Shown here one piece after another: positions 14,806 through 48,983 of a DNA stretch of 64,000 nt; the first letter of the stretch is position 1; each line of letters begins with the position of its first letter. The stretch is taken from the NCBI RefSeq assembly GCF_000421765.1, contig NZ_ATXQ01000001.1, positions 372,001-436,000 on the forward strand, read 5' to 3'. The position numbers and the translations under genes were made by a program. Under the pieces are notes generated by a model, which did not search any database, had not been told where the DNA came from, and was given only the letters and a program-made list of their open reading frames with translations. The DNA is from Denitrificimonas caeni DSM 24390 (lineage in GTDB: Bacteria > Pseudomonadota > Gammaproteobacteria > Pseudomonadales > Pseudomonadaceae).

Positions 14806-15390
14806 TTACTGAGCCAGTAACTGACCAATTGCAGGATCGTTGAATACGCGCTGCAAGCCTTCACTCAAAACTTTACTCACCAATTTGGTGTTGGTCAGCT
14901 CATTAGGGGCTTTCGCGTAGCCTTGGGTTAGATTTGCCGCATAACGCCCATTGTAGCGACGTGTGCCGTTTTGTACTTCTAGTGCATACACCGCACTCAG
15001 CTGCGCTTCTTTAATCACGCCATTGCCATCAGTGGCTTTATAACTCAGCTCAACCAGCTTTAAATTAAGCTGAGCTTCACCTGCGCCCTGCTGCATCGGC
15101 GTAAAACCGAGCATGCGTACTGCTGCATCAGTTTCCGCTTGTAAGCGCGGCAAAAAGGCTTTTGAGTTAACCGTAATAGCGCTGCTCTGCGCATACAGAC
15201 CTCCACGTGTGCCAATCACCGGATTAGAGCGCGCGTCAGAAACACGGACAACGACTGGTTGACCTTGTCCAACAGCGACCAACTGGCCACTAAAGCGAGG
15301 CTCTGGGGTCAAATACTGCGGACTCAAACCGCAGCCCACCAGACTTACACTGACAATAATGGCCGCACTTGCAAATAGGTAACGCAACAT
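14806..15390 (-). CDS. YajG-family lipoprotein
   Basis: A 194-residue predicted lipoprotein: N-terminal hydrophobic signal followed by the lipobox LVGC with Cys20 as the lipidation site. The mature part (VVVRVSDARSNPVIGTRGG, LNLKLVELSYK, VSKVLSEGLQRVFNDPAI) follows the YajG family of periplasm-facing lipoproteins with no firmly known function. AAGGA lies 8 bases ahead of the ATG. It is in the same direction as miaA, 76 bases upstream of it, and could be cotranscribed, though no functional link is known. Confidence 0.85.
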   Translation of the reverse strand: MLRYLFASAAIIVSVSLVGCGLSPQYLTPEPRFSGQLVAVGQGQPVVVRVSDARSNPVIGTRGGLYAQSSAITVNSKAFLPRLQAETDAAVRMLGFTPMQQGAGEAQLNLKLVELSYKATDGNGVIKEAQLSAVYALEVQNGTRRYNGRYAANLTQGYAKAPNELTNTKLVSKVLSEGLQRVFNDPAIGQLLAQ

Positions 15391-15582
15391 AATTTAGATC
15401 CTTTGAAAAAACCGATGAGAATTTTACTAAGTTTAACCAAGCTCTACAGGCTTGCACAGTATAAAGGGTCACAGACCAAATACCCTAAGTTATCCATGCC
15501 ACTTGATGGCCTAGAAACATTTTATGACACCTTTCGACTAAAGAAATTTTGCATAGATGATCGTTTTTTCTGATTTCATCGT

Positions 15583-15588
15583 TATAAT
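15583..15588 (+). promoter_or_regulatory. Candidate -10 element of a long-leader mqo promoter
   Basis: Perfect TATAAT in an AT-rich stretch. At 16-18 bases upstream there is no good TTGACA-like hexamer, so an activator or a weak -35 would be needed. Support is modest. Confidence 0.35.
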
Positions 15589-15686
15589 TACTTCCCAACT
15601 ATGTACGACACCCCGGTATTTAGGCTGTTACACCGTCTTTGATGGTTTATTTGCTCTAAATCGAGGTTGCCGAGTGCCCTATTTAC

Positions 15687-15766
15687 GGCGCTCAAGCGCA
15701 CGCTGAACGAGACAATTCTGCACTTTTTATCCTGTGCATCATTCACGCGCAGCTTTCTTGAGCGTC
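15687..15766 (+). ncRNA. Candidate structured RNA element in the mqo leader
   Basis: GGCGCTCAAG (15687-15696) pairs with CTTGAGCGTC (15757-15766): ten pairs with one G-U. Inside, GCGC can pair with GCGC across an asymmetric bulge, and TGCAC...GTGCA forms an apical hairpin with a ten-base loop. The nested pairing suggests a folded RNA. I do not recognise it as a known riboswitch. Confidence 0.4.
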
Positions 15767-16001
15767 TGCGGTAAAAACATTTTAAAGATCCGTTACTCCA
15801 AAAGATGGCGGGACAACTGTTTCACAACTTCACAAGAGTGTGGCAAGCAATGAATAGTTTGGCGTTTACAGTTCCATGCACCAGCAGCCCTCCTTCTTGC
15901 AGCGGTTAAAGAATTGACTATTTCGCAATAACCTAACCCTTAACGAGGCTGACTACAGTTTTTTGTGTACAGCCCAATAGCTGCATTTTGGAGACACACT
16001 G

Positions 16002-17489
16002 ATGGCGCAAGATAATCAAGCACACTTGGATGTTTTACTGGTGGGTGCCGGTATTATGAGTTCCACTTTAGCCGTAATGCTAAAAGAGCTCGATCCAAGC
16101 CTTCGCTTAGAACTTGTTGAGCAAATGGAAGATGGGGCTATGGAAAGCTCTAACCCATGGAACAACGCAGGCACCGGCCATGCTGGGCTGTGCGAACTCA
16201 ACTACACTCCAGAAGCAGAAGACGGCTCCATTGATATTAAAAAAGCTATTAATATCAACGCCATGTTCGAAGAGTCCAAACAGTTTTGGGCCCACCTGCT
16301 CGAAACTGGCACCTTCGGTGATCCTGATACCTTTATTCACTCAGTGCCTCATCTCAGTTTTGTGCAAGGCGAAGACAACGTTGCCTTCCTAAAAAAACGC
16401 GCAGACATCATGCAGCAACACCATGCGTTTAAAGACATGCAGTTCACCACAGACAAAAGTGTGATGGCTGAATGGTTGCCGCTGATGATGGCTGAACGTA
16501 AAGATGATGAGTCCATGGCAGCGACTCACATTGCCAACGGTACCGACGTTAACTTTGGCGCATTGACGCGTCAGCTACTGAGCTACTTAAGCAAGCAAGA
16601 CAACTGCAGCCTGCACTACAAAAGCAAAGTTGTAGGGCTTAAGCGTGTTGCTGCAGGCTGGCAGGTCAGCATCAAAAACCTCGCCACAGGCCAACGTCGT
16701 GAAGTGACTTCACGCTTTGTTTTCTTAGGTGCAGGCGGCGCAGCTTTACCACTGCTGCAAATGTCCGGCATCCCTGAAGGCAAAGGCTACGGCGGCTTCC
16801 CCGTTAGCGGCCAGTGGTTACGCTGCGACAAACCTGAAGTTGTTGAACAGCACCAAGCCAAGGTTTACAGCTTAGCAGCAGTGGGCTCGCCACCGATGTC
16901 CGTACCGCACTTAGATACGCGCGTCATTGATGGCAAAAAATCCCTACTATTTGGACCTTATGCAGGTTTCACTACTAAGTTCCTCAAACGCGGCTCATTC
17001 CTCGATTTACCGCTGTCCGTACGTTTCGGCAATATTTTGCCGATGCTGGCAGTCGGTCGCGACAATATGGATCTGACCCGTTATCTGATCAGCGAAGTCA
17101 TGCAGTCAATGGAACAGCGTTTGGATTCTTTGCGCCGTTTCTACCCACAGCTTGACCCAGCAGACTGGAAACTTGAGATCGCCGGGCAACGTGTGCAGAT
17201 CATCAAAAAGGACGCGAAAAAAGGCGGCATACTGCAGTTTGGTACAGAACTGGTCAGCTCTGCCGATGGTTCACTAGCTGCCTTACTGGGCGCTTCACCG
17301 GGTGCTTCAGTGACCGTGTCGATCATGCTCGACTTGCTCAAGCGTTGCTTCCCAGAGCAAAGCGCATCGGCGGCATGGACAGAGAAGCTCACGGCTATTT
17401 TCCCAGCGCCACTTAAAGATCTGGAAACTAACGCCGAGCTTTACGCACAAACGCAAGAGCGTTCAGATCGCTTGCTAAAACTGCGATAA
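16002..17489 (+). CDS. mqo: Malate:quinone oxidoreductase
   Basis: FAD-dependent peripheral membrane enzyme that oxidises malate to oxaloacetate and passes electrons to quinone, in place of or beside NAD-linked malate dehydrogenase. The 495-residue protein starts with the dinucleotide fold [20 protein letters not shown] (residues 12-31). [45 protein letters not shown] and QIIKKD are characteristic Mqo blocks. GGAG lies 8 bases before the ATG. It is monocistronic: a long leader in front and a terminator immediately behind. Confidence 0.96.
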
Positions 17490-17494
17490 CCTAT

Positions 17495-17526
17495 AAAAAA
17501 AGCCCGCTTACTAGCGGGCTTTTTTG
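17495..17526. terminator. Bidirectional terminator between mqo and yajQ
   Basis: AAAAAAAGCCCGC, loop TTACTA, GCGGGCTTTTTTG. A and T runs on both sides allow termination of mqo (plus) and yajQ (minus). Confidence 0.93.
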
Positions 17527-48435: not shown

Positions 48436-48626
48436 GCTATAAACACAGAAAACCTTTTATATTTCTTGAACTTAGATACAGTTATTAAAATAATCACAGG
48501 TCTAAAAAGTGCTTTTTAAAAACAACCGCATACAGATGAACACCTTAACTATCGAAGTTAAAGTGAAGCATTAAGAGGAGATGTTATTTTCGCTCTGACC
48601 AACGGTCGTTAGGCAGAAAAAGAAGT

Positions 48627-48983
48627 GGAGAGTCGATCTGTAAGCCGGGTTTTGTCGTGAACAGTCATTCCTCTAGGGTCGCCATCACTGGCGACCTCAA
48701 GCAACCTACCCGAGTCCAGCGCGGGCCACGCCAATGGACTCCTATTTGGTCTTGCTCCAAGTGGGGTTTACCTAGCCACGGACTGTTACCAGCCGTGCGG
48801 TGCGCTCTTACCGCACCTTTTCACCCTTACCGGCACTTGCGTGCTTAGGCGGTTATTTTCTGCGGCACTTTCCATAGGCTCACGCCTCCCAGGAGTTACC
48901 TGGCACTTCGCCCTACGGAGCCCGGACTTTCCTCCCTCGCATTACCGAAGTAATGCAACAGCGACTGTCCGATCGACTCTCCG
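48627..48983 (-). ncRNA. rnpB: RNase P RNA (M1 RNA, type A)
   Basis: Catalytic RNA that removes tRNA 5' leaders. On the minus strand the 5' end (GGAGAGTCGATCGGACAG) pairs with the 3' end (GATCGACTCTCC) as stem P1. The universal GAGGGAGGAAAGTCCGGGCT block, CCCAGGAGGCGTGAGCC-like region, GGTAAGAGC and the 3' ACCCGGCTTACAG segment are all visible. The P1 stem is followed by CACTTCTTTTT, a likely terminator. Position upstream of mraZ is as in Pseudomonas. End coordinates are within a few bases. Confidence 0.95.

Follow-up and report, generated by a model that had tools for sequence, protein, structure and literature searches.

The window, the whole stretch of 64,000 nucleotides of Denitrificimonas caeni that was analysed, contains the gene of malate:quinone oxidoreductase (mqo) with a divergently oriented lipoprotein ORF upstream. 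The features of the locus are presented in Table 1. The 610-base gap in front of mqo had been described in the original prediction as free of genes. Its borders were placed correctly, but the gap holds a conserved upstream ORF (uORF) of 19 codons.

Table 1. Positions of the features at the mqo locus (numbering of the window).
Feature	Positions	Strand	Description or basis
Lipoprotein ORF, divergent	14806-15390	-	5' border of the gap upstream of mqo
TATAAT, -10 box of the leader promoter	15583-15588	+	Sequence; aligned across 60 representatives
5' part of the leader, variable	15595-15784	+	Genus: 19% invariant columns, 62% identity
Nested hairpin of the original prediction	15687-15766	+	Modest genus-level support
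Hairpin A	15790-15811	+	Lower stem CCGTTA/TGGCGG, one-base bulge, short upper stem, CAAAA pentaloop
Hairpin B	15818-15849	+	TGTTTCACA-A-CTT-CACAA-GAG-TGTGG-CA-AGCA; MFE fold
Near-invariant core, ACTTCACAAGAGTGTGGC	15827-15844	+	0-4 substitutions in 134 distinct loci
uORF, MNSLAFTVPCTSSPPSCSG and stop	15850-15909	+	19 codons; open frame across relatives
Hairpin in the spacer between the uORF and the mqo ribosome binding site	15947-15974	+	GGCTG/CAGCC with TACA/TGTA; predicted in the leader MFE fold
mqo ribosome binding site region	15985-16001	+	GGAG at 15990-15993; sequence reading
mqo, malate:quinone oxidoreductase, 495 aa	16002-17489	+	Pfam PF06039 match 1.9e-226, window's genome

Layout of the mqo leader

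The perfect TATAAT named in the original prediction is present, and the promoter is conserved. A -10 box (TATAAT, TACAAT or TATACT) was located 130-290 nt 5' of the conserved element described below in 132 of 134 distinct loci, and the element lies about 190-240 nt 3' of the box in most loci. The distinct loci are L001-L194 after the removal of 58 duplicates and of L017 and L020, which lack the core of the element. Transcription would start just past TATAAT, resulting in a leader of roughly 407 nt. Measured from six bases past the -10 box, the mqo start lay 548-575 nt away in eight of the nine spacer-bearing g9 loci listed and 664 nt away in L144, the ninth of them.

The ribosome binding site region of mqo was 59% invariant with 89% identity in 11 genomes of the genus. 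Palindromes resembling the spacer hairpin were present in relatives from the genus. On the + strand of the window, no terminator-like site was detected at 15850-16001. A terminator-like palindrome, AAAAAAGCCCGCTTACTAGCGGGCTTTTTT, was located at 17496-17525, in the interval between mqo and the convergent gene.

In L031 and in the majority of loci from other genera, the leader opens just 3' of the -10 box with the hairpin CCCGAT-TATAAGGACGTCTCCTG-ATCGGG; this hairpin is lacking in the window's genus. The AAGGACGT within it resembles the RsmA/RsmE consensus. The common neighbours in the Pseudomonas loci were the lipoprotein gene, mqo, a PA4642-like gene and a phosphoribosyltransferase gene.

The search of the whole window against Rfam 15 resulted only in an RNase P class A RNA (48625-48980, - strand, 337.6 bits) and a cobalamin riboswitch (1127-1328, - strand, 80.5 bits). 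At 15391-16010, a sub-threshold snoRNA match was the only one obtained at E<=10, and the element remained without a match even at this cutoff in the Rfam scan that the original prediction had proposed. In seven relatives, nothing reached the gathering score.

The conserved element and its fold

The original prediction had assigned a possible undescribed RNA element in the long mqo leader to a nested hairpin at 15687-15766. A conserved element is present in the leader, but at 15785-15849 and not at the nested hairpin. The ten-base arms do pair, 15687-15696 (GGCGCTCAAG) with 15757-15766 (CTTGAGCGTC), by nine Watson-Crick pairs and one G-U, and the MFE structure predicted for the 407-nt leader includes this pairing. 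The fold did not stand out from chance: the z value of 15660-15790 was -0.65, with 50 of 200 shuffles equally stable. The corresponding value of the whole 407-nt leader was -1.39, with 7 of 100 shuffles as stable. Among the 11 genus genomes, 15% of the columns of the nested hairpin were invariant and the mean pairwise identity was 56%, and due to this low conservation it was rejected as the conserved element. When the hairpin was re-registered with the outer 5 bp kept, 86.7% of the cells were paired and 5 of 15 pairs were changed on both sides in nine distinct sequences. The covariation score of this version was 0.206 compared with 0.145 in shuffled alignments, and 5 of 500 shuffles reached it. 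The covariation term of RNAalifold for the nested hairpin was unfavourable, +0.83.

The element at 15785-15849 was 91% invariant in the 11 genus genomes with a mean pairwise identity of 96%, whereas the first 149 bases of mqo were 60% invariant. Positions 15833-15854 were 100% invariant in the same genomes. The element consists of two tandem hairpins of one design, A and B, and ends at an AUG. Across the copies, hairpin A has in most cases a one-base bulge, an upper stem of two or three pairs and the loop CAAAA. Hairpin B has CAC(A/U), a bulged A, the stem CUU/GAG and the loop CACAA or a variant of it.

The original prediction had suggested a search for compensatory changes in homologous regions. 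These were found, strong in hairpin A and modest in the nested hairpin. In a model-based alignment of 84 copies (81 distinct), which is biased toward structure, eight of the nine pairs of hairpin A were changed on both sides and 95.3% of the cells were paired. The MAFFT alignment of 54 distinct copies gave seven double-changed pairs of nine and 97.9% paired cells. For the whole structure, 60 double-change cells were counted compared with 13.3 in shuffled alignments, and none of 500 shuffles reached this number. As the cells of hairpin A contained 53 G-U but 3 A-C combinations, the fold is kept as RNA of the mqo-sense strand.

The evidence for hairpin B is partial. In its lower stem, two of the four pairs were double-changed (A-U to U-A in seven sequences, A-U to G-C in one) and 83.3% of the cells were paired, while the upper stem was invariant in the 81 distinct sequences. 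The lower stem is missing in several g15 genomes. The lower extension of hairpin B, which is predicted to cover the Shine-Dalgarno (SD) sequence, was mostly of G-U pairs with zero double changes. The other hairpin proposed by RNAalifold for this region was broken in several relatives. The alternative hairpin GUGAAAA/UUUUCAC was rejected as the main fold, showing no covariation though pairing was possible in 89.2% of the cells. The isolated element was not more stable than its shuffled versions (z from -0.15 to -0.90 in six sequences). Since the folding energy of a single copy is ordinary, the claim of an element rests on conservation and covariation.

Additional copies and partners of the element were searched as well. 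The motif CTYCAMAAGAG occurred 12 times in three genomes; four of these sites were the element and eight had no enclosing stem by eye, and further copies of the hairpin unit were therefore rejected. A second close match to the 18-mer core was not found in six genomes. A long pairing partner for the core was rejected too, as all the other matches in six genomes had three mismatches and were about as numerous as those of the reversed control. No match to the element was obtained in the plasmids searched.

Distribution, linkage to mqo and the frame at the AUG

In the first homologue search with 15400-16060 as the query, 20 of 57 genomes were matched: the window's own, all 11 of the genus and eight from other genera. 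The match of G005 covered the neighbouring gene only. In the other genera, the similarity was confined to about 60 bases near 15796-15865 or to the start of mqo. A search with the Mqo protein, from which the best 80 of 440 relatives were taken (L024-L103, mostly Pseudomonas), revealed the short block upstream of mqo in all 80 loci. The covariance model R1 had matches in 255 of 398 Pseudomonadaceae genomes, representing 10 of 19 genera, with one match per genome among the matches listed. Among 369 genomes drawn from the class, the model matched none of the 368 besides the window's own, with strict filters that may miss weak matches.

The element was linked exclusively to mqo. In the 61 loci found by the model (L104-L164), mqo adjoined the element in every case, and it was located downstream on the same strand in all 134 distinct loci. 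Of 20 family genomes tested that lack the element, 15 carried mqo, from which it follows that the control by the element is dispensable. Mqo was absent from G005, G017 and G033, and G023 and G060 had only a weak relative. In G005 (L020/L229), whose genome is a single contig and belongs to the window's genus, both the element and mqo are absent and the lipoprotein and yajQ-like genes remain.

The 15 element-less mqo stretches contained one degenerate copy fused to mqo (L221 of G057, E 4.6e-5) and two non-significant matches; where such a genome had several mqo genes, these results refer to the presumed orthologue alone, the identity of which was low, 57-63%, in L218-L220. The stem of hairpin A in the degenerate copy of G057 is wholly different in sequence yet complementary. 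L222 and L223 (G062 and G026) have a hairpin with a CAAAA loop on an unrelated stem, GGC-CAAAA-GCC, 171-175 nt 5' of mqo. The conserved core is lacking there, and the model score of L222 was not significant.

The AUG at the end of the element opens the uORF, followed by mqo at a distance, in 114 of 134 distinct loci, and in the other 20 mqo itself starts at this AUG. In the spacer-bearing loci, 67-412 nt separate the end of the core from the ATG of mqo. Because the same AUG serves either the uORF or mqo, the element appears to be the initiation region of whichever frame follows. Placed on a tree, 72 Mqo proteins require five or more switches between the spacer and direct arrangements, and three of these follow necessarily from branches with good support; the tree was built by a quick method, has long branches in L161 and L163, omits L171 as too short and counts the changes without direction. 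Direct fusion of the element to mqo is a repeated arrangement that probably arose in several separate fusions.

In each of the 127 distinct rows, the uORF frame ran for 14 codons or more, with the in-frame start and stop conserved, and its length was 14-34 codons among 124 unique uORFs. The median open lengths of the +1 and +2 frames were 0 and 2 codons, respectively, and 34% of the +2 rows reached 14. The peptide begins with the conserved MNS or MKS. The synonymous fraction of the uORF was 0.35 versus 0.28 expected (1110 pairs), which refers to a weak constraint on the peptide, and the act of translation therefore probably matters more than the product. The ORF at 15805-15909 (34 aa) was rejected as a conserved feature, its frame being broken between close relatives by one-base indels in the linker of hairpins A and B.

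Proposed control of mqo and its alternatives

There is good evidence that the mqo leader carries an orphan mRNA element with a uORF. Our main reading, to which we assign a probability of roughly 0.55, is that a cis-acting structured RNA controls the initiation of translation at the AUG and thereby mqo; most likely, the amount of the enzyme made is what the element controls. Hairpins A and B would act directly 5' of an AUG with a weak SD. Local MFE folds, obtained for the window and for several relatives, enclose the bases directly 5' of the AUG in hairpin B, and the SD-like sequence is weak; the occlusion of the ribosome binding site by hairpin B and its lower extension is accordingly a prediction of the folding. 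A putative factor would shift the hairpins and set the frequency of ribosome starts at the AUG. The most likely factor is an RNA-binding protein reading the twin loops, a metabolite or a small RNA being less likely. Translation of the uORF would be coupled to mqo either by opening a downstream structure or by keeping Rho off; the coupling is suggested by the interposition of the uORF and its repeated loss. In the lineages without a spacer, the element would work straight on the mqo start codon. The steps which we infer are the covering of the SD, the trans-acting factor, the coupling and the direction of control. A more specific form of this reading, in which the twin hairpins are a sensor for Pseudomonadaceae-wide control of malate oxidation, with a dedicated protein or metabolite reading the two copies and setting the translation of the uORF or mqo, is tentative.

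A constant spacing from an AUG whose SD is weak, the near-invariant core and the direct use as the start region of mqo in 20 distinct loci would also be expected from a constitutive element, i.e. a standby site or enhancer acting on translation initiation or mRNA stability with no signal input. We consider this rather unlikely, as two matching hairpins in which a stem covaries and a loop is conserved exceed the needs of an enhancer, and the uORF interposed in most species is likewise more than an enhancer requires. A putative riboswitch for malate, oxaloacetate or another TCA intermediate, with the twin hairpins as the aptamer, would explain the link to one gene only, a gene of the TCA cycle, the position near the SD and the competing helix, GUGAAAA/UUUUCAC, which 89% of the cells can form. 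However, that helix is without covariation, the element is small and simple for an aptamer, and the free variation of the A stem with conserved loops is more like recognition by a protein, so a riboswitch seems improbable.

Of riboregulation and an independent small RNA, the two options named in the original prediction, the cis-acting RNA element was supported, whereas the fixed place against the AUG favours translational control in cis over an independent sRNA. A trans-acting sRNA made from the leader is very unlikely also because the conserved part always abuts the AUG and no terminator-like site lies between the element and mqo in the window. The P. aeruginosa PAO1 transcript PA4639.1 is indeed listed as an ncRNA in the accessible text of PMC5870498, but its length equals the distance from the promoter to mqo. 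That the uORF encodes a small protein with a function of its own, the conserved upstream sequence being its translation start region, agrees with the intact frame in all 127 distinct rows and with the MNS/MKS start; the weak amino-acid constraint and the persistence of the element in loci without the uORF make it hardly credible. Hairpin A is an inverted repeat, as a DNA-level regulatory site would be, yet the excess of G-U over A-C cells (53 versus 3) places the pairing on the mqo-sense RNA only, and the location of the element, which in most loci is about 190-240 nt 3' of the -10 box, also speaks against such a site or an antisense RNA, which we regard as next to impossible. The preferred reading is still the cis-acting control of initiation at the AUG.

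Regulation that acts on a uORF coupled to the gene behind it would be common to the uof-fur system and the mqo leader. The difference is that uof is under sRNA control, while the mqo core lacks a second close match in six genomes. With the ilvB-II uORF, as far as described in the accessible text of PMC11109978, the mqo leader shares a conserved in-frame start and stop in the mRNA leader of one gene. Unlike there, no terminator-like site follows the mqo uORF in the window, structured RNA precedes it, and it was lost in the fused lineages. The sucA-II, sucC and icd motifs, listed in the available part of PMC2864571 for Pseudomonas, Pseudomonadales or gammaproteobacteria, are similarly orphan conserved RNAs named after TCA-cycle genes, and none of the motifs named there is called after mqo. 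The Rfam families sucA-II and sucC had no match at the mqo leader; the icd motif has no Rfam accession. In the accessible text of RNA-motif surveys including PMC2864571, the passages that mention malate or quinone do not deal with mqo, and Pseudomonas is absent from the main text of the later surveys. No published mqo leader element was found in a search of paper listings and of mostly freely accessible main texts.

According to the available text of PMC5870498, PA4639.1 (pant428, PA14sr_139) is 566 nt long, is located at 5,207,898-5,208,463, was confirmed by RT-qPCR and is fivefold up in biofilms. It is reported there as free-standing, and its description does not include mqoB control, the element or the uORF. 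In P. aeruginosa, mqoB is PA4640 (accessible part of PMC2246019). As the name, beside PA4639, and the length fit, it is very probable that PA4639.1 represents the homologous leader transcript before mqoB. The available texts of PMC8407307 and PMC2246019 describe MqoB as the more strongly expressed form in P. aeruginosa, needed for growth on acetate and ethanol. The controls of mqo genes described in PMC8407307, i.e. that of P. putida mqo-2 by Crc and the repression of mqoA and mqoB by BsrA, are, as presented there, not RNA elements like that of the mqo leader.

The element would give a meaning to a transcript that has so far been classed as an ncRNA. The occurrence of the same element in lineages with and without the uORF is a natural experiment. 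MQO acts at the oxidation of malate in the TCA cycle, and a family-wide RNA element would add a new layer of control there; if the twin-hairpin sensor is true, it would be a new class of regulatory RNA at a branch point of the TCA cycle.
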